Assembly (NCBI RefSeq): GCF_900473965.1
Contig: NZ_UCNJ01000028.1
Span: 1 to 64,000 of the forward strand
DNA length: 64,000 bases
Direction of reading: 5' to 3'
Source: Synechococcus sp. UW179A
GTDB taxonomy: Bacteria > Cyanobacteriota > Cyanobacteriia > PCC-6307 > Cyanobiaceae
The notes beneath the pieces are model-generated. The model ran no database searches, was not told the DNA's origin, and was given only the letters and a program-made list of their open reading frames with translations. The position numbers and the translations under genes were made by a program. Positions 27,748 through 37,242 of this stretch are shown in pieces; the first letter of the stretch is position 1, and the number at the start of each line of letters is the position of its first letter.

Positions 27748-27789
27748 TTCACCACTGCTGTCAGAATGACAACGTCCGGTCTTGATCGG

Positions 27790-28045
27790 ACTAGGTGATC
27801 CACACCAGTGTTTCGGACAGCGGTTCGATTCCGCTCAGCTCCATTCCCCCTTCCTGGGGCTGCAATGGTTTCGACGGGGCATGAGGAGGGTGACTGAAGC
27901 CTGCTCGGTAAGAGCAAACCCGTAACTGCGAACAACATCGTTCGTTTCTCCCGTCAAGCAGCCCCTGTTGCTGCCTGACCCTTTAAGGGAGATGGGGTGA
28001 AGTCAGCCTTATCACCCAAATGACTCATGGGGCCTGGAAGGGCCC
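27790..28045 (+). ncRNA. ssrA: tmRNA, circularly permuted two-piece form
   Basis: The parts occur in permuted order. First the acceptor piece: T-arm GCGGTTCGATTCCGCT and 3' acceptor strand CAGCTCC-A ending at 27843. Then a 12-base spacer. Then the 5' acceptor strand GGGGCTG (27856-27862) and the tRNA-like CAATGGTTTCGACGGGG, followed by the coding part. GGGGCTG and CAGCTCC pair over 7 bp. GGTGAT (27794-27799) pairs with ATCACC (28011-28016) as helix P2 joining the pieces. The tag reading frame (27928-27978) gives ANNIVRFSRQAAPVAA. tmRNA rescues stalled ribosomes with SmpB. The ends given are approximate. Confidence 0.93.
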
Positions 28046-28050
28046 TTTTT
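28030..28050 (+). terminator. Rho-independent terminator of ssrA
   Basis: GGGCC-TGGAAG-GGCCC stem-loop followed by TTTTT, directly behind the tmRNA. Confidence 0.8.
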
Positions 28051-28101
28051 AATTGCCAGAGACTTGCTTCGTAGGGTCTTGGCGCAGCGCCTTGAAGTTG
28101 A

Positions 28102-28290: not shown

Positions 28291-29310
28291 ATGCCTGCAG
28301 CGTCGCCTGGGATCTATCAAGCCCTGGGCATGCATCTGGAGTCCACGTTGGTCTTGCCGGAGTTGATCCAAGCGGCCGCGTCTGTGGAGCGTGAGTCGCT
28401 GGTGCAGCTGGTGGAAGCTGATCACAGGCAGTGGCCAATGCTGCAGGCCAGCCCCCACAGCACGCCAACGTTGCAGTTGGCGCCGCAGGAATGGCGGCTG
28501 GAACTGGAAGGCATTGGTTGGTTCCGTGCCACCGGTGGTGAGCGTTTGGAATGGCAGCGCTGGGACGACAGCGTCAGCGATCGCGACATCCGCACGTTTG
28601 CTGTCACCAGTGGGCTTGGGGCCTTGGCGATTCAGCGTGGTGCCTTGGTTTTGCATGGAACAGCGCTGGAGCGAGATGGTGAGGCCATCCTTCTGTTGGG
28701 TCATCCAGCTGCCGGTAAGTCCACCCTGGCCTGGTGTTTGCTGCAAGACGGTTGGCGTTTACTCAGCAGTGAGCTCGTTGCCGTGAGCCCTGATGGGCTG
28801 GTTCTGCCAGGGATGCATCAACTCAAGCTCTGGCATGACGCCGCTGTGGCATTGGAACTGAATTGGCATCAGTTGCCACCGGTGAGAAAGGGATTGAAGC
28901 GCTACGCACTGCATGCTCACGATTTGGATTGTCTGCCCCAAGGATCACCATTGCGGCTGATTTATGTGTTGAATCGCGCCAAAGAGGATTCGGGTCAAGA
29001 GGATGACGCTGAAGCAGAAGATGAGAAGGAAAAAATGTCTCTTAAGGCTTCACGCAATGTCTCACAAACCAATTCCTTGATGCGCCTGCGTAACCAAGCC
29101 TTTCACGCAAGAATGTATCGAGGCATGGACGCAGAAGCGCAGCTGTTTATGCAGGCAGCTGCACTAGCTCGAACGGTGCCGTTGCATGCCTTGATCGTTC
29201 CAGATGGAATCAAAGCAATGGCCAAAAGCCTGAAGAAGGTGGACCTGATGCAACCTGAATCGATGCAACAGCGCAGAGAAGCCACAGAAGAGGACTCAAG
29301 CAATGAATGA
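28291..29310 (+). CDS. HPr-kinase-like protein with P-loop
   Basis: A 339-aa protein whose middle matches HprK-related kinases: LALHGTALE-like segment VLHGTALERDGEAILLLGHPAAGKSTLA contains the Walker A loop (GHPAAGKST, about residue 139), followed by LLSSELVAVSPDG and LPGMHQLKLW, which match the region following the loop in HprK/PckA-like kinases. The N-terminal 100 residues are not recognised. A very acidic loop (about 235-250) precedes a C-terminal part with MRLRNQAFHARMYRGM. Related proteins occur with PqqD-like proteins in peptide-modification clusters. The end overlaps the sulfotransferase start by 8 bases, indicating an operon. Confidence 0.7.
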   Translation: MPAASPGIYQALGMHLESTLVLPELIQAAASVERESLVQLVEADHRQWPMLQASPHSTPTLQLAPQEWRLELEGIGWFRATGGERLEWQRWDDSVSDRDIRTFAVTSGLGALAIQRGALVLHGTALERDGEAILLLGHPAAGKSTLAWCLLQDGWRLLSSELVAVSPDGLVLPGMHQLKLWHDAAVALELNWHQLPPVRKGLKRYALHAHDLDCLPQGSPLRLIYVLNRAKEDSGQEDDAEAEDEKEKMSLKASRNVSQTNSLMRLRNQAFHARMYRGMDAEAQLFMQAAALARTVPLHALIVPDGIKAMAKSLKKVDLMQPESMQQRREATEEDSSNE

Positions 29311-30184
29311 AGATCACAGCTACTGGTATCTGGCTTCTTATCCAAAATCAGGCAACACCTGGTGCCGGGTTTTTATCACTGAATTAATGAGGTTGGCAGG
29401 AGATAATCCTGGAGAAGAACTAAACCTTAATCAAGATATTGAAACTGGAGCGATTGCCTCATCCAGGCTTTGGCTGGACGATCAATTAGGAATTAATAGT
29501 TGTGATCTAAGTTTTAGTGAACTTGACCCGTTGCGCGGACGTGCTGGTGCCAGTTCGTGGCTATTCGCAGAAGGAGAGCGATTTCATAAAGTGCATGATT
29601 CATTTAAATCTCCTGATTCCCGTAGACGCCCGGTGGTGAGCACAACAGGTTGCTCTGGAGTTGTTTATATTCTGCGCCACCCAGAGGATGTGGCCCTGTC
29701 ACTCAGTCACTTCTTCTCATGGCCGTTGGATCGATGCGTTGATTTTCTGTTGGATCCCGGTGCAGCACTGGTGCCAGGAGAACGCTTTGGAGGTCATCAA
29801 GTACGACAACACATGGGCCGCTGGGATCAACATGTGCGCTCATGGGCCGATCAAACTCAGCTACCAGTCTTGATCATGCGCTATGAAGATATGCTATCGA
29901 AAGGATCAGAAATATTCACTGAATTGGCAACTTTTTTAGGGCTTCCTACTGACTCAAAACTCATACATCAGGCTTTGGAAAACACCTCCATTGATCGACT
30001 CAAGAAGCTTGAGGAAGATGTTAATGGTTTTGCAGAAAAGCCTGCTGGTTGTGAACGATTCTTTCGCTCAGGTCGCACCGGAGAAGGAGCAGAACAACTT
30101 TCAATTGAGCAGCGAAAGCGATTAGCAAATGGGTTGTCTGAAGCGATGAATCGCTTTAAATACGAAGGGCCAGAAGTTGACTGA
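29303..30184 (+). CDS. Sulfotransferase (PAPS-dependent)
   Basis: A 293-aa cytosolic sulfotransferase. The 5'-phosphosulfate loop is SYPKSGNTWCRVF (residues 12-24) and the 3'-phosphate site is in VVYILRHPEDVALSLSHFF; the C-terminal RSGRTGEG is close to the R-K-G-x-x-G-D-W-K region of type I enzymes. The acceptor cannot be told from the sequence. It is embedded between the kinase-like gene and the acetyltransferase-like gene with overlaps on both sides. Confidence 0.85.
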   Translation: MNEDHSYWYLASYPKSGNTWCRVFITELMRLAGDNPGEELNLNQDIETGAIASSRLWLDDQLGINSCDLSFSELDPLRGRAGASSWLFAEGERFHKVHDSFKSPDSRRRPVVSTTGCSGVVYILRHPEDVALSLSHFFSWPLDRCVDFLLDPGAALVPGERFGGHQVRQHMGRWDQHVRSWADQTQLPVLIMRYEDMLSKGSEIFTELATFLGLPTDSKLIHQALENTSIDRLKKLEEDVNGFAEKPAGCERFFRSGRTGEGAEQLSIEQRKRLANGLSEAMNRFKYEGPEVD

Positions 30185-30722
30185 TCCTCGAATTCAGTTT
30201 GTATTTGGACAGGTGAATGATCAGCTCAGAAGCGAATTGAAGGCTTTTTGGAGACAGTATGGCAAGCCATATCAAGAAGAATTGAAGTCGTTTCGAGCAA
30301 CACTAAGCAATAACCAGAAGCGCATGGGTCTACTTAAAAAGCCTATATCGCGACAGCCAGCCGCAATTTCACGTGATCAATCAGGAGCAATTGATGGCAT
30401 TGTATTTGTCGTATTACGAGAGTTAGAAACCTCGCTAGACCTTGGAAGCCATGCCTATTTTCAACGCATGTATGTAATTCCAGAATCCAGGAATCCACGT
30501 CTGGCAAATCAGCTCTTTAGAGCATTCCTTAAAGGGTTTGATCGTGAAGAAGAGAAACGCGATCATCGAGCAAAAGTATTACTAGCTGAAAACATTAATC
30601 CTGGCTTGCAAAAAGCATCCATGCGACGTTATTTTGCACGCCTTGGTTTCCAAATGCTTGGAGGAAATCGACTTGGTGGTGAAGTCTGGGCAAGAAAGCT
30701 CAAAACACACTTCTCGTTTTAA
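30177..30722 (+). CDS. GNAT-like protein, probable N-acyltransferase
   Basis: A 181-aa protein with a TTG start overlapping the sulfotransferase stop. The second half has a GNAT-like pattern: GIVFVVLRELETS (beta strand), YFQRMYVIPESRNPRLANQLFRAFL (strand plus the acetyl-CoA helix region) and RYFARLGFQMLGGN near the C-terminus. The canonical R/Q-x-x-G-x-G/A loop is not clean (P-E-S-R-N-P-R-L-A), so assignment is by topology and is uncertain. It is the third gene of the kinase/sulfotransferase set and its end overlaps the convergent PqqD gene. Confidence 0.6.
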   Translation: MTDPRIQFVFGQVNDQLRSELKAFWRQYGKPYQEELKSFRATLSNNQKRMGLLKKPISRQPAAISRDQSGAIDGIVFVVLRELETSLDLGSHAYFQRMYVIPESRNPRLANQLFRAFLKGFDREEEKRDHRAKVLLAENINPGLQKASMRRYFARLGFQMLGGNRLGGEVWARKLKTHFSF

Positions 30723-31000
30723 TCACCAACTACGGCAATCACTTTTTTTTCTAAGGCAGCTTCCAGCCATGTTTCAATGGAAGACTTGCATTCATCGAGA
30801 GTTACTTCATATTCCGCCTGTAAATTCTTGCAGAGTTCAGGCAGTGTTGGCTGAGTTTTCAGTGCATGCCAAATAGCTGAGCCTGTCTCATTGAGAACAA
30901 GATAGTCGCAGGTATTGCTTTGAAATAAAGCCACACCGCCGTCGAGTTCTGTGCAGACAGCTTGGGGATGCTGTTTAAAGCGTTTGGTTCCACTTACCAT
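30719..31000 (-). CDS. PqqD-family peptide-chaperone-like protein
   Basis: A 93-aa protein: FKQHPQAVCTELDGGVALFQ, then YLVLNETGSAIWHAL and LCKNLQAEYEVTLDECKSSIETWLEAALEKKVI. This is the PqqD pattern (stranded N-terminus, L-N-x-T-x-x-x-I-W, then a three-helix winged HTH). PqqD-like proteins are RiPP recognition elements or, in sugar-linked clusters, partners of HprK-like proteins. It faces the three-gene set at 28291-30722. No precursor peptide or radical SAM enzyme is next to it. Confidence 0.8.
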   Translation of the reverse strand: MVSGTKRFKQHPQAVCTELDGGVALFQSNTCDYLVLNETGSAIWHALKTQPTLPELCKNLQAEYEVTLDECKSSIETWLEAALEKKVIAVVGD

Positions 31001-31061: not shown

Positions 31062-31847
31062 ATGGCACGTCAACCCCGCTTTCTGCCAGCAGGCCATTCA
31101 TTTCACATCACGCTGCGCTGCAATAGCAGGCAGTTCTTGATTGCAAAAGGATTGAGAAGAGATGTGCTGCTAGCTGTGCTGGCAAAAGCCAAGCAGAAGG
31201 TTCCTCATCGCTTGTATGCGGTGTGCCTGATGGCCAACCACCTGCACTTGCTGCTGCGTCCTGATGATGCAAGTGAGCTGCCGAGGTTGATGCATTGGTT
31301 CGCCTGGTATTCCGCCATGGCCTTGAACCGCTTGAGCGGTCGTTGCGGACACTTCTGGGAGGCCAGGTATTTCTAAACCCCAATCCATCCCAAAGATCAC
31401 AGGCGAATGCTGAATACCTTGAGGTATATCCATGCCAATCCCAAAGCAGCAGGAATCAGGAAAGGTTTTTATGACCCCTATTCCAATTACGGGCATTACG
31501 GCAGGTTGGAATGTGATGGCATCAGTGAGTGGCACCCCAGTTTTTTGCAATTGGGATCAAGCCTGAAAGCTTGCTCCAAACGGTATGCATGGTTTTGCCA
31601 GAACTACCGGCATAAAAGCAAAGGCGGCTCTAGGTGCCATTGGGGCTCAAGGATGCTGAAACGATTAGTTGAGAAGGGCAGAGGCAGACAAACCAAAAAG
31701 AGCCGAGTATCACCAGGACAACAGAAATTACCGTTTGCCTTTGACATTCGCCTCAATCAAATCCCAGAGGAGTGGCAGCAAGTTGCGGTGAAATTTAGAA
31801 GAGCAAATGGCATTCGCGATGGTGACACGAGAATGTTTCTTTCATAA
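31062..31847 (+). pseudogene. REP-associated tyrosine transposase (RAYT/Y1 type) with in-frame stop
   Basis: One reading frame from 31062 to 31847 encodes an IS200-like single-strand transposase: HSFHITLRCNSRQF, then the HUH motif CLMANHLHLLLRP, and after a break LRYIHANPKAAGI with the YxNP-like tyrosine region. A single TAA at 31374-31376 splits it after FWEARYF; the residues before and after the stop are continuous with the family sequence. So it is a nonsense mutation, not a frameshift. The C-terminal 65 residues are basic. No REP palindromes were recognised around it. Confidence 0.85.
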
Positions 31848-32085: not shown

Positions 32086-33225
32086 TTAAAGGTTTTCCTC
32101 AGCCCTTTTTTTCTTCGTCCAGCCGTTAGCATTTGCATCAGGCGCGCCAGGGTTGCAATGCCATAGGGACTTTGTTGAATTGGGTCCATGATAGGTACTC
32201 AAAGCAGACCAGGAGGAGGGCTGGAGGCTGCCGGGGAACAACTTGAACTTGCACTTCGCATCTGGATCTACTGCATCATGAACGCGGATATTCCTGTTTT
32301 TAACGCTTTCAGATAAGGCTTGAATGGTTGGCTTTTGCCATGCTTTTTTCTTGGTTTCTGCAGCTGTAGTGTTGCTGCCAAAGCGATACTCAATGTTGCC
32401 TGAAACTCTGGTTTCAAAAGCTTCGTCATAGGAAACATTGATCCCAGTAGTTAAACCATCAGCGATCTGATAATCCAGCTCCACCTGCACACCTGAACCA
32501 TCTGCTGTTCCTAGATCACCGCTTTGGTAGTAGTAACCAACAGAGGCATTGAGTTCAGGGGTGATGAAATAACCAACATCAAGGCCATAGGTATCAAGCG
32601 CCCCACCGAGATAACGCGCATTGAGGCGCTGCTCTGTATCACCAACAGGGATTAAGGCATAGGCATTGAAGTTCCAGGTATCTGATACTGCCTCTAAACC
32701 TGCTGCGATCTGCTGAAAAAAAGCACTTTCCTTGTCGTAGAGCGTGACACCTGTTTCAGCATTGCCTGTATTCATCGGCCTGCTGTCATAGCCGCTGTTT
32801 ACGCCATACATCCAGCTGCGGTCACTATTCAGCCAGCGATAACCAAGCCTTGATGAGGTGCTGATTGTTGTTCCAGCAACCTCTGTTTTGACGATGCTGC
32901 TGTATCCGCCGTAATCAGCAAAGTTGGCGTTGAGCAACACATCAGCAAAGAACACACTGTTCTCGCCAACAGCGATTGGCAGGAACCCACCAATGCCTGC
33001 TTGGTTGGGTGTGCCTGCTCCTTGCAGTGCGCCTTGAAAACCCCAGTTGAACTTGACTGCATCCTTGAGGTTGATCTCCATCACCCCGAGATCATCTGCA
33101 CCACCTGCGTCTTGAGCAGCGGCAGGCAAGAGAGTGGCGTTAGCTAGTGCCAGTGCAGCAACACCGCTCAGCGATAACGACAGACTGAAGGACCGCTGCA
33201 TTGATTCAGGCATCATTCCGCGCAT
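32086..33225 (-). CDS. Outer-membrane beta-barrel (inverse-autotransporter-like), copy 1
   Basis: A 379-aa exported protein starting MRGMMPESMQRSF with a signal peptide cleaved near AAAQDA. Residues 55-290 form a barrel domain with alternating strands: VGENSVFFADVLLNANFADYG, STSSRLGYRWLNSDRSWMYG and YDSRPMNTG recall the inverse autotransporter/intimin-type barrel. The last 90 residues (ETKKKAWQKPTIQALSES...) are a soluble tail with three cysteines and a basic end. It is a tandem duplicate of the gene upstream, with barrels nearly alike and tails different. Function unknown: surface porin or display scaffold. Confidence 0.7.
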   Translation of the reverse strand: MRGMMPESMQRSFSLSLSLSGVAALALANATLLPAAAQDAGGADDLGVMEINLKDAVKFNWGFQGALQGAGTPNQAGIGGFLPIAVGENSVFFADVLLNANFADYGGYSSIVKTEVAGTTISTSSRLGYRWLNSDRSWMYGVNSGYDSRPMNTGNAETGVTLYDKESAFFQQIAAGLEAVSDTWNFNAYALIPVGDTEQRLNARYLGGALDTYGLDVGYFITPELNASVGYYYQSGDLGTADGSGVQVELDYQIADGLTTGINVSYDEAFETRVSGNIEYRFGSNTTAAETKKKAWQKPTIQALSESVKNRNIRVHDAVDPDAKCKFKLFPGSLQPSSWSALSTYHGPNSTKSLWHCNPGAPDANANGWTKKKRAEENL

Positions 33226-33357
33226 GATGCCGGGCTTTGCTTAGCTGCGCCCGTTGCGGCTTGGGGCGTCCCGGTGGATCGGGCTGCCGCTGAACGAGTA
33301 TTGGCCGGAGTTGCTAGATAATTGCAGTCTTGATTACTAATTAAGCCCCGGCTATCT

Positions 33358-33390
33358 CTGCTCAACTGCGCTCAATCGTGCCAGGTATTG
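33358..33390. repeat. Repeats flanking the duplicated barrel genes
   Basis: CTGCTCAACTGCGCTCAATCG (bases 33358-33378) recurs at 35733-35753, and GTGCCAGGTATTG (33378-33390) recurs at 31998-32010. The copies suggest that duplication blocks extend beyond the coding sequences. Confidence 0.6.
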
Positions 33391-33489
33391 GAGGCTGATT
33401 TAAGGGTTTATGGTGTTGGTTGAAGAAACAAAAAGCCCCCGCAATTGCAAAGGCTTTAGATGGTTTGGCTCAACTGTTTGTTCGCTTCA

Positions 33490-34494
33490 CTAAGCCTGCG
33501 CGGGTACAGTGTTTCTGTAAGATTGGGTGTTGGAGAAGACTGGATCATGCACCCGCACATCCCTGTTATTGGGTGATGCGGTTAGGGCGTTAATTGTCGG
33601 ATTGTCCCACTTTTTCTTCTTGGCTGCTGTTGTGCTTGGGCCGCCAAAGCGAACTTTAAGATCTGCTGAAACTCTGGTATCAAAAGCCTCGTCGTAGGAG
33701 ATATTTACTCCTGCTGTTAAGCCACTACTGACTTCATAGGTCAATCGTCCGAGCACCCCAGAACCATCAGCCGTGCCTAGGTCATCATTTTGGTAGTAAT
33801 ACCCAACAGAAGCATTGATAATTGGAGTGATGAAATAACCAACATTAAGCCCGTAGGTGTTGAGTGAACCGCCTTGATAAACGCTGTTGAGTTGAGCTTC
33901 TTTCTCCCCTACAGGAATTAAGGCATAAGCATTGAAGTTCCAGTCATTAGAGACTGCTTCTGCATTCACAGCCACCTGCTGGAAGAACACACTGCGCTTG
34001 TTGCTGACGTTCACCCCTGTATCAGCATCACCTGTATTCATCGGACGGCTGTCATAACCACCGTTGACGCCAAACATCCATGAGCGATCACCATTCAGCC
34101 AGCGATAACCAAGCCGTGATGAGGTGCTGATCGTGGTTCCAGCAACTTCTGTATTGATCAGGCTGCTGTAGTTGCCGTAATCAGCGAAGTTGACGTTGAG
34201 CAGCACATCAGCAAAGAAAACACTGTTCTCGCCAACAGAGAGAGGCAGGAACCCGCCAATGCCTGCTTGGCTTGGTGTCCCAGCGCCTTGCAGTGCGCCC
34301 TGGAAGCCAAGAGTAGGCTTGACCACATCCTTGAGGCTGATGCTCATCACATCACCCAGATCCTCAGCATTGCCGTCCTCTTGAGCAGCCACTGGTTGAA
34401 GAGGTGTGCCAGCGAGTACCAGCGCAGCAAGACCACTCAGCGATAACGACTGGCGCAGGGACTGGTGCATTGGATCAGGCGTCAGTCCGCGCAT
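33490..34494 (-). CDS. Outer-membrane beta-barrel (inverse-autotransporter-like), copy 2
   Basis: A 334-aa paralogue of copy 1. I start at 34494 (MRGLTPDPMHQSL), which aligns with the copy 1 N-terminus and excludes a terminator hairpin at 34553-34574 that the longer open frame (to 34617) would contain. Signal peptide ends near VAAQED. The barrel shares VFFADVLLNVNFADYGNYSS, RLGYRWLNGDRSWM and SVGYYYQNDDLGTADGSG with copy 1. The tail is about 45 residues shorter and ends in FSNTQSYRNTVPAQA. The upstream leaders of both copies are alike (ATGATGCCG-GCTTTGC). Confidence 0.7.
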   Translation of the reverse strand: MRGLTPDPMHQSLRQSLSLSGLAALVLAGTPLQPVAAQEDGNAEDLGDVMSISLKDVVKPTLGFQGALQGAGTPSQAGIGGFLPLSVGENSVFFADVLLNVNFADYGNYSSLINTEVAGTTISTSSRLGYRWLNGDRSWMFGVNGGYDSRPMNTGDADTGVNVSNKRSVFFQQVAVNAEAVSNDWNFNAYALIPVGEKEAQLNSVYQGGSLNTYGLNVGYFITPIINASVGYYYQNDDLGTADGSGVLGRLTYEVSSGLTAGVNISYDEAFDTRVSADLKVRFGGPSTTAAKKKKWDNPTINALTASPNNRDVRVHDPVFSNTQSYRNTVPAQA

Positions 34495-34789: not shown

Positions 34790-35138
34790 ATGGTAGATAA
34801 CGTACCAAGAAATGGGAACTTCGAGAACAGAATATTGCTGAAAACCCTGCCAAGTGCTGGGTTTTTGCTGCCATTGCAGTGGAAGCTGGTGCCAACAGAC
34901 CCGAGATAACTGCTAACACTGGGGAAGTCCTGGAGAAGCTGATGACCGAAGAGCAAGTCAAGAAGAAAGAACGCAAGCAAAAATCAGCAAAGAAGAGCTA
35001 AAGGGTGTCGAAGGTGCCGGTTGTGGATGTGAAGATGTGCCAGAACTCAGCGAATCAGAACTAAAGAATGTGAGTGGTGGGGTGGACTTAGCAGCCGTCG
35101 CAATATCGATGTACGACGGATATGAAGGTCGGGCCTGA
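34790..35138 (+). pseudogene. Frameshifted precursor-peptide remnant with double-glycine leader
   Basis: Frame A (34801-35001) reads REQNIAENPAKCWVF and later EKLMTEEQVKKKER, then stops. Frame B (34974-35138) continues with ISKEELKGVEGAGCGCEDV and PELSESELKNVSGG, followed by VDLAAVAISMYDGYEGRA and a stop. The end of the leader (L-S-x-x-E-L-x-x-V-S-G-G) is the cleavage-site pattern of Nif11/NHLP-type RiPP leaders. Adding one base in the A-run near 34980 would join the frames. A first start (ATG 34790) is also out of frame. So this is a decayed precursor. Confidence 0.6.
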
Positions 35139-35225
35139 GATGCCGGAAGGTGGTAACCGGAGCAAGTTGGTGCCGGTCGATCCACGCTGACCCGGAAGCC
35201 GGTGACGCCAAGGCTCCAGGGCAAT

Positions 35226-35306: not shown

Positions 35307-35552
35307 TTAACAGCCACACTTCCCCTGAGTGAGCGTTCTTCCAACATAATCCTTGCCACCAGCCACGCTTTCCAGCTCCTCTGCTGAAATCTTTGTTTGA
35401 GCCTTGGTGGGGTTATCAGCAGAAATACTAAATCCTGCCTCTTTAGCAATTGCAGCAACAGCATTGGCATCAGCAGCCGCTTTGAGCTGCTCCTGAAGGC
35501 TGTTGTTGCCTTTAGCGTTAGCCAGGAAAGCTGTGAGTTGTTCTTGTGTCAT
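35307..35552 (-). CDS. Nif11-type prochlorosin-like lanthipeptide precursor
   Basis: An 81-aa precursor. The leader MTQEQLTAFLANAKGNNSLQ... is a Nif11 domain (QEQL-x-x-FL, L-x-x-x-L-K-A-A, A-x-x-A-x-x-A-G-F) that ends in ISAEELESVAGG. The putative core after the double glycine is KDYVGRTLTQGKCGC, with two Thr and two Cys able to form two thioether rings. In marine Synechococcus and Prochlorococcus such ProcA peptides are dehydrated and cyclised by one promiscuous LanM enzyme (ProcM) and exported by a peptidase-ABC transporter. Neither is in this window, which is usual for scattered procA genes. Confidence 0.85.
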   Translation of the reverse strand: MTQEQLTAFLANAKGNNSLQEQLKAAADANAVAAIAKEAGFSISADNPTKAQTKISAEELESVAGGKDYVGRTLTQGKCGC

Positions 35553-36353: not shown

Positions 36354-37106
36354 TCATACCGATTCATAAATAGCCTGAAGATGTACCCTGACCTGATCAT
36401 CAAGTGACGTGATCTTCCGAATGAAGCCATAATTATTATTGCGGCAACTTTCCAGGAGAGCGGGGGTCAGCTGCATCACCTCGGCCTGGGTGCGGGTGGG
36501 GTCAGAATTGCAGAAAACAACATTGGATCGTTCCCATTCCGCTCCAATGCGAATCAGATGATTGATCCAGTAATACTCATCGGCCAGCTGAAGCAATGGA
36601 AAATCATCCACACTGGCGCTCTTGATGATCCTGGAGATCGCCTCTCTCTGGATCACAAAGAACATGTTTTGCTTGCGCAGCTGATCCACCGAGAGCCCGA
36701 AATAGAGGGCGATCTGTGCAAATCGTTCTGCATTGGCCCGAACCTGACGCTCGCTAAGACCATGCCGGGGCTGCAACGCCAAACGCGTCTGACTGCAGAA
36801 TGACTGAATCCAGGCAAATGGGTGCAGGGGCAGCATGTCTCCCGACAAAAGCACCATGGCGTCACAGCCATCATTGATCGCCGCAACAAACAATCGTTGG
36901 GTGGCCGCCACCAGACTCCTCTCTCCCCATGCTGTTTCAAGGGGAGCAGGATCGATCCAGGCACCGTTCAGCACAGGCCATGGCGTGGGCGTTTTGGCAT
37001 GCACATAAATCCCTACAGATCCAGGTGGTGCTGGCCTTAGAAAGCTCTCCCACAGGGAAACATGGTTCAATCCTTCCTTGACTAGGAAACAAAAACCAAG
37101 CTTCAC
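36354..37106 (-). CDS. Core-2/I-branching-like glycosyltransferase (GT14-like)
   Basis: A 250-aa protein. It starts (GTG at 37106) MKLGFCFLVKEGLNHVSLWE, then SVGIYVHAKTP, ETAWGERSLVAATQRLFVAA and AMVLLSGDMLPLHPF; the order matches bacterial GT14 core-2 branching enzymes (W-G-x-x-S-L-V and L-S-x-x-x-x-P-L-x-x-F). Near the C-terminus ADEYYWINHLIR corresponds to the D-E-x-Y/F motif before the catalytic region. Likely acts in surface polysaccharide or protein glycosylation. No other polysaccharide genes are next to it. Confidence 0.75.
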   Translation of the reverse strand: MKLGFCFLVKEGLNHVSLWESFLRPAPPGSVGIYVHAKTPTPWPVLNGAWIDPAPLETAWGERSLVAATQRLFVAAINDGCDAMVLLSGDMLPLHPFAWIQSFCSQTRLALQPRHGLSERQVRANAERFAQIALYFGLSVDQLRKQNMFFVIQREAISRIIKSASVDDFPLLQLADEYYWINHLIRIGAEWERSNVVFCNSDPTRTQAEVMQLTPALLESCRNNNYGFIRKITSLDDQVRVHLQAIYESV

Positions 37107-37242
37107 CCAACAATAAATCAAAACGAGTTCAACACTAGAACAAGCCTGCTTAAATGATCAAACGCGAGTAAATGGATCTCTCGCAATTGCCCATAACCTC
37201 ATCCAAACCCCCTGAAACAGGATGCCTTTGATCTGGCAATCT

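Follow-up and report, generated by a model that had tools for sequence, protein, structure and literature searches.

A conserved PqqD- and sulfotransferase-containing cassette of picocyanobacteria and a leader-like tag on neighbouring barrel-type proteins

The question raised by the four genes at positions 28291–31000 of the analysed stretch of Synechococcus sp. UW179A (contig NZ_UCNJ01000028.1, 64,000 nucleotides, to which we refer as "the window") is which substrate they act on: they encode an HprK-like protein, a 3'-phosphoadenosine-5'-phosphosulfate (PAPS)-type sulfotransferase, a GNAT-like protein and a PqqD-family protein, and the initial annotation saw in them a modification cassette without a precursor or a B-protein. 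By comparing the locus with those of related genomes, we have found a precursor-like element, i.e. a leader-like tag followed by a variable tail, on barrel proteins that are encoded next to the cassette. We consider it likely that the four genes form a tailoring set of the kind that serves ribosomally synthesized and post-translationally modified peptides (RiPPs), kin to the lasso-like clusters of cyanobacteria, and that this set acts on the C-terminal tails of outer-membrane barrel proteins.

The cassette and the tagged barrel genes

All four open reading frames (ORFs) stand where the initial annotation had placed them, in the overlapping layout that it had described: the first three genes overlap by eight bases each, and the PqqD gene, on the opposite strand, shares four bases with the end of the third. 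The HprK-like protein (28291–29310, forward strand) retains the P-loop GxxxxGKST and has Ser-Glu in place of Asp-Asp; its matches to Pfam Hpr_kinase_C (expectation value, E, 0.001) and NCBIfam HprK_rel_A (E 1e-13) are both below the cut-offs. The sulfotransferase (29303–30184, forward strand) matches Sulfotransfer_1 (PF00685, E 2.7e-15) above the cut-off, with 56.9 bits against a gathering threshold of 22, while the GNAT-like protein (30177–30722, forward strand), a weak assignment, matches Acetyltransf_7 (E 0.0074) below it, with 17.1 against 27 bits. The PqqD-family protein (30719–31000, reverse strand) matches PF05402 (E 8.3e-13) above the cut-off, with 48.9 bits against 23.4, and appears to be a RiPP recognition element (RRE) of the lasso B1 kind: its best relatives in the Protein Data Bank (PDB) are the lasso B1 proteins 9x90 (E 1.6e-6), TbiB1 (0.0044) and TfuB1 (0.017). 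The earlier view that PqqD implies a bound peptide appears right. As judged from these profiles, the family assignments of the sulfotransferase and of PqqD are firm, and those of the HprK-like and GNAT-like proteins are remote. The genome of the window (3.06 Mb, 35 contigs) has a single PqqD match.

The same four families recur, in the same order and orientation, at several chromosomal sites, so they stand together more often than by chance. The HprK-like protein is matched in 19 of the 149 genomes searched, its own included, and all the places with at least 48% identity (short fragments excluded) lie in HprK–sulfotransferase–GNAT clusters faced by PqqD; the carriers include Synechococcus sp. 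UW105, UW140 and AG-679-A04, Prochlorococcus sp. AG-412-I05 and MIT 0701, Cyanobium sp. Morenito 9A2 and a metagenome-assembled genome (MAG) of Synechococcus lacustris. The four genes are a real cassette, as the initial annotation had supposed, and it is conserved across Synechococcus, Prochlorococcus and Cyanobium; the main condition under which that annotation would have been refuted, that the four families are never found together in other genomes, does not apply. Its location varies: it adjoins the transfer-messenger RNA (tmRNA) gene in the window and in three other loci (L029, L031 and L149), and lies elsewhere in others. One genome (G013) has several copies, two of them in tandem with 99.97% identity over 3,014 bases; among the compared cassettes, the sulfotransferases are 71–94% identical.

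When the ORFs of the window and of the 20 loci fetched first are clustered, the families common to cassette loci, besides site-specific flanks, are HprK, PqqD, the sulfotransferase, GNAT, a barrel family and a REP-associated transposase-like (RAYT) family. No lasso B2 gene is common to these loci, and no small precursor ORF of at least 40 residues is common to the barrel-type cassette loci, among the matches listed. The view that a precursor is missing is incomplete. The range then considered ended short of the most informative neighbours, two barrel genes at 32086–34470, on the strand of PqqD and upstream of it. Barrel gene 1 (32086–33201, reverse strand, its start being set at the Met that precedes the signal peptide) carries the tag core KKAWQKPTI (32323–32349, reverse strand) and a variable tail of 62 residues (32089–32274, reverse strand); barrel gene 2 (33490–34470, reverse strand) carries the tag core KKKWDNPTI (33592–33618, reverse strand) and a variable tail of 17 residues (33493–33543, reverse strand).

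The proteins of this family have about 310–430 residues, arranged as a signal peptide (identified by eye), the barrel with its last strand, a linker, the tag, a block and the tail. The tag reads KKxWxxPx[I/L]xxL and is followed by an NRDVRVHD-like block and by the hypervariable tail, which in tagged genes has 9–90 residues and a median pairwise identity of 0.16. The K, W, P and L at positions −17, −14, −11 and −6 before the block are invariant in all 49 tagged genes, and the second K is kept in 48 of them. As to the barrel itself, Pfam OMP_b-brl is matched in 7 of 37 members (best E 7.6e-5) and IAT_beta (PF11924) in 6 of 37 (best E 6e-4), the two window proteins matching the latter weakly (13.8 and 11.6 bits, gathering threshold 22.3); a profile search of PDB sequences with the family gave no match. 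The predicted layout, with an N-terminal barrel and the passenger behind it, resembles that of the inverse autotransporters, to which the IAT_beta matches weakly point; where these have a large passenger, this family has a short tail.

The tag has counterparts in lasso systems. Stand-alone lasso RREs recognise the motif [Y/W]xxPx[L/V/I/F/A], the Trp of which is nearly invariant in paeninodin-type leaders (PMC13381572, 2026). Within the same cyanobacterial family, there are lasso-like clusters whose HprK and PqqD genes are related to those of the cassette, several of them with a sulfotransferase, and B2-like and cyclase-like genes are present in L187 and in L185, which shares its contig with L200. 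Short ORFs of such clusters bear the motif: KKWVTPKLEIL in L187, KLEW[I/V]TP[K/S]IS in L195–L197, with KLEWVTPKISLM in L196 and L197, and WI[K/R]PE in L200–L202; the motif therefore marks leaders of this enzyme group. The lasso-like clusters (L041, L187 and L195–L202) occur in Synechococcus-, Prochlorococcus- and Cyanobium-type genomes, and their products are possibly sulfated or phosphorylated peptides. Separately, the barrels of the window have distant matches in two large beta-helix proteins (L043, 4977–7376; L047, 4569–7397), which are encoded close to HprK-bearing clusters in other cyanobacteria.

The tails of the barrel proteins are exchanged behind the block. In genome G013, two barrel genes are identical over 796 bases up to the last RVHD codon and then continue with unrelated tails, and similar breaks at this codon occur in G266, G167 and G178; in 58 of the 61 barrel pairs with a body identity above 0.93, the tails are less than 0.5 identical. 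Near-identical bodies with unrelated tails are also seen in the two window genes and in L149, L151, L160, L161, L162 and L035. We have considered a DNA-level constraint at the RVHD junction, where the Arg codons AGG and CGG are enriched relative to the body, and make no claim, because another conserved Arg is encoded by CGC in 100 of 101 cases and common descent may suffice.

Association of the tag with the cassette

The tag and the cassette are statistically linked. Of the 300 genomes of the family, 69 have a match to the barrel proteins and 24 a match to PqqD; in many genomes, up to six barrel candidates were scored, and most of the listed places were fetched. From 127 barrel frames, nine under 100 residues and five without an anchor were set aside, leaving 113 anchored genes, of which the tagged ones number 47 of 65 in cassette genomes and 2 of 48 in the others (Fisher p 2e-14); the motif was first spotted in loci that are also counted here, the cassette-less genomes having been fetched later. 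Counted by genome, a tagged barrel is present in 16 of 16 genomes with the cassette and in 2 of 24 without it (p 2.4e-9). The association is also found within genera (joint probability 2.8e-6): 8/8 tagged cassette genomes against 2/8 others in genus g1, 2/2 against 0/5 in g5, 2/2 against 0/1 in g30, 1/1 against 0/3 in g45 and 1/1 against 0/4 in g10. Two genomes labelled as cassette genomes (G073 and G184) gave no barrel tail, and seven with a lasso-like or weak PqqD match (G149, G221, G267, G279, G331, G333 and G338) are treated as lacking a barrel-type cassette.

The position of the tagged genes agrees with this count: a barrel with a readable tail is present near 16 of 21 PqqD places, and in all 16 the nearest one is tagged, lies on the strand of PqqD and is situated upstream, at a distance of 156–1512 bases; the other five places are at contig ends, or have barrel fragments only, or no barrel. 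Independently of barrel homology, a scan of the 300 whole genomes for the DNA pattern of KKxWxxPxI has given 58 hits in 20 genomes, compared with seven hits for the reversed control pattern. The pattern is matched in 15 of 16 cassette genomes, where each of the 53 hits falls in a barrel frame, and in 5 of the 284 others (p 3e-20), among which G184, with barrel fragments only, is counted; the five are G020 and G025, where the matches are in barrels, and G061, G071 and G316, where they are in short non-barrel frames.

Several observations weigh against the reading that the cassette acts on tagged tails. The tagged state of the nearest barrel in all 16 places is only modestly unusual (0.0056), given that 47 of the 65 barrel genes of cassette genomes are tagged; 18 of these 65 genes are untagged, and one cassette genome (G073, a MAG in which the contig ends at the cassette) has no tag match. 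A tagged barrel is retained in two cassette-less genomes, G020 and G025; that of G025 adjoins tmRNA and rlmL, which is the cassette site in the window and in some relatives, and therefore the cassette has likely been lost from this genome. A further cassette-less genome (G026) counts in favour of the reading: it has a barrel with KKKRENPTINAL, where Arg occupies the Trp position. The linkers of untagged genes often share the Pro (45/64), the Ile (50/64) and the Leu (62/64) of the tag, and it is the Trp and the Lys pair that carry the association signal. A tree of barrel bodies (105 rows) speaks for the reading: the tag has to change 13 times on it, seven times or more on supported branches, and across seven independent pairs, the cassette differs in the same way as the tag in 4.8 on average, in the opposite way in 0.1 and not at all in 2.1; by a sign test, this result is borderline (median p 0.06, range 0.016–1). 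The barrel fold is suggested by weak Pfam matches, and a structure model built from five sequences has a pLDDT of 33.6; the GNAT assignment is weak by sequence and its structure model is mediocre. Untagged tails are as variable as tagged ones (median identity 0.14 against 0.16), so the variability is independent of the cassette: tail exchange is a property of the whole barrel family, only part of which would be a target of the cassette. In favour of the reading, tagged tails are less acidic than untagged ones (acidic fraction 0.073 against 0.121) and have a higher net charge (+1.62 against −1.11), a test in which none of 10,000 permutations reached either value but which ignores the kinship of the tails and is thus overstated.

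The same data bear on the alternative that the cassette acts on a polysaccharide or on a separate small peptide, and that the tagged barrels merely share its genomic islands. Sulfotransferases act on sugars too, HprK-like/PqqD pairs have been named in other settings (the NCBIfam HPr-rel-A models), and the cassette and a barrel are often found together; yet, within a cassette genome, tagged barrels encoded far away from the cassette keep the tag as well, cassette-less genomes retain untagged barrels of the same family, and the RAYT gene represents the sole other ORF family common to the cassette loci clustered. As the tag, moreover, matches the published RRE motif (PMC13381572), we regard this alternative as improbable.

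Enzymes, likely chemistry and known systems

Among 14 aligned barrel-type members, a subset of the copies found, the HprK-like protein has the P-loop Lys in all 14 and the His in 11 (Q or N in the other three), while Asp-Asp occurs in none and is Ser-Glu in all; in the relatives aligned from other clusters, the four catalytic residues are all present (seven of seven). The lasso tailoring kinase requires the catalytic His-Lys-Asp-Asp (PMC9266682), and lasso kinases act on a C-terminal Ser (PMC9266682, PMC8498205), the residue at which 2 of 48 distinct tagged tails end. Since Asp-Asp is absent, a reaction like that of PadeK is unlikely, and for the HprK-like protein the role of an altered subunit or of a scaffold is more likely than that of a PadeK-like kinase; phosphorylation by the cassette appears doubtful, which weakens the phosphorylated product envisaged in the initial annotation, by the second of that annotation's own refuting conditions (loss of the catalytic Asp/His).

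At E ≤0.001, the sulfotransferase matches 41 distinct PDB sequences, nearly all of them named sulfotransferases; TEG12 and Teg14 are the nearest, and cytosolic SULTs and StaL come next. TEG12, Teg14 and StaL sulfate peptide antibiotics. Candidate acceptors are common in the distinct tagged tails, with Ser, Thr or Tyr in 45 of 48, Tyr in 34 and Lys in 38. For the GNAT-like protein, profile searches of PDB sequences and a query of a plasmid collection gave no match; the listed Foldseek hits of its model (pLDDT 66) are nearly all acetyltransferases (E about 1e-4, TM score 0.34–0.44), and the protein is matched in barrel-type cassettes and unmatched in lasso-like loci.

The loss of Asp-Asp from the HprK-like protein would also suit a second alternative, in which PqqD serves tagged barrels as a chaperone of export or folding, binding the tag so that the protein stays competent or its export is timed, and the enzymes modify the tail little or not at all. 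The kind of signal peptide differs between most tagged and most untagged barrels, in rough classes, 32 QRS-like and 2 LRR-like among the tagged against 10 and 25 among the untagged, the rest being unclassified, and this difference may be relevant to the timing of export. By eye, both orphan tagged barrels (G020 and G025) bear the LRR-like kind that is usual for untagged ones, as does one tagged cassette-genome barrel (G013, L162), and the remaining tagged cassette-genome barrels with a readable start have a QRS-like or similar signal peptide. A sulfotransferase with a firm score, retained at the identity given above, is nevertheless unneeded for chaperoning, and we consider this alternative less probable still than the preceding one.

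Tailoring of the tails being our preferred reading, the closest known systems are the following. Paeninodin-type lasso tailoring shares with the cassette the stand-alone PqqD-type RRE, the leader motif, the HprK-like gene and, in some clusters, a putative sulfotransferase, and albusnodin is tailored by an acetyltransferase (PMC8498205, PMC9266682, PMC13381572). In contrast to lasso clusters, the cassette loci have in common neither a B2 protease gene nor one for a cyclase or a transporter, the motif sits behind a barrel within a long protein, and Ser-Glu replaces Asp-Asp. The linear polyphosphorylated peptide (LPP) systems likewise combine an RRE with an HprK-like protein without lasso cyclisation, and a conserved leader with a highly variable C-terminus (PMC13381572), whereas the cassette has barrels, a sulfotransferase and GNAT instead; the SpI-like peptidase, NTP transferase and MsbA-like transporter of LPP are not among the families common to cassette loci, as seen in the ORF clusters and not by a profile search. 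The HPr-rel-A system and the SynChlorMet cassette share the HprK-like/PqqD-like pair, but their models score below the cut-offs here (TIGR04352, 51.1 bits against 200; TIGR04353, 24.5 against 35; TIGR04249, 24 against 125; TIGR04248, 21.9 against 100). Because the defining parts of lasso and LPP systems that were tested are not found, the cassette is, as far as its sequences indicate, a member of neither, although its RRE step would work like theirs.

An incomplete or decaying lasso cluster, with its small precursor, protease and cyclase elsewhere or lost, would account for the sequence kinship with lasso-like clusters, but is very improbable, as the reduced set, including the GNAT that is unmatched in lasso-like loci, is conserved across genera and the tag pattern lies exclusively in barrels within the 15 matched cassette genomes. 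Neither the cassette nor the tagged barrels are described in the titles and abstract openings of the literature searched, which covers open-licence PubMed Central and is not proof of absence; the main text of a study of RiPPs of marine Synechococcus (PMC10783134) does not contain the words lasso, PqqD, sulfotransferase or porin.

Proposed tailoring of the tails and further features of the locus

In the mechanism that we propose, PqqD would bind the tag behind the last barrel strand, in the cytoplasm, as lasso B1 proteins bind leaders, and would present the variable tail to the sulfotransferase, which would place sulfate on Tyr, Ser or Thr, while GNAT would perhaps acetylate Lys or another amine of the tail. 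The binding of the tag by PqqD is the step in which we have the greatest trust; sulfation of the tail seems, on balance, the better expectation, and acetylation is a more doubtful addition. The modification would take place before the tail leaves the cytoplasm and export would follow, since in Sec export the C-terminal tail comes out last and could thus be modified beforehand. Because the cassette shows no gene for a leader peptidase, the tag and the tail would remain on the barrel, uncleaved and displayed. That the whole amounts to a surface display of exchangeable tails, switched right behind RVHD and sulfated, perhaps also acetylated, by means of a grafted lasso-type leader, is a tentative proposal, to which we give less credence than to acetylation of the tail taken by itself.

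If this proposal is true, RiPP chemistry would vary the outer face of picocyanobacteria, for example against phages or grazers. With the tailoring of tails by itself, RRE-guided tailoring would reach integral outer-membrane proteins, beyond small secreted peptides, the tag would be a portable element for the modification of surface proteins, and there would be a route by which abundant ocean cyanobacteria might diversify their surface. The tailoring reading predicts that KKxWxxPx[I/L] is bound by PqqD, that the tagged tails of cassette strains are heavier by 80 Da (sulfate) or 42 Da (acetyl), and that untagged barrels of the same cells are not.

Two further genes adjoin the cassette without being part of it. 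The permuted tmRNA gene (27754–28069, forward strand) precedes it, and a REP-associated transposase-like gene (31062–31847, forward strand), lies between PqqD and the barrel; a stop interrupts its frame in the window, whereas several relatives have it intact. Of the 49 tagged barrels, 16 have such a gene at a distance of 1.5 kb or less, as do 6 of the 64 untagged ones.

The initial annotation had named the Nif11-type leader peptide gene at 35307–35552 as a possible source of the PqqD substrate, a suggestion that has found no support: the peptide has no [Y/W]xxP motif, and we have rejected it as a candidate, given that it is not a regular cassette neighbour, being matched, among the window and the 20 loci fetched first, just in the window and in L030. 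Further Nif11 genes occur near barrels away from any cassette (L178 and L209). In the window, a Core-2/I-branching-type glycosyltransferase gene (36354–37121, Pfam E 2e-7) is situated near the Nif11 gene, and a stretch at about 34960–35140 (forward strand) reads, by eye, like a decayed Nif11-type gene.

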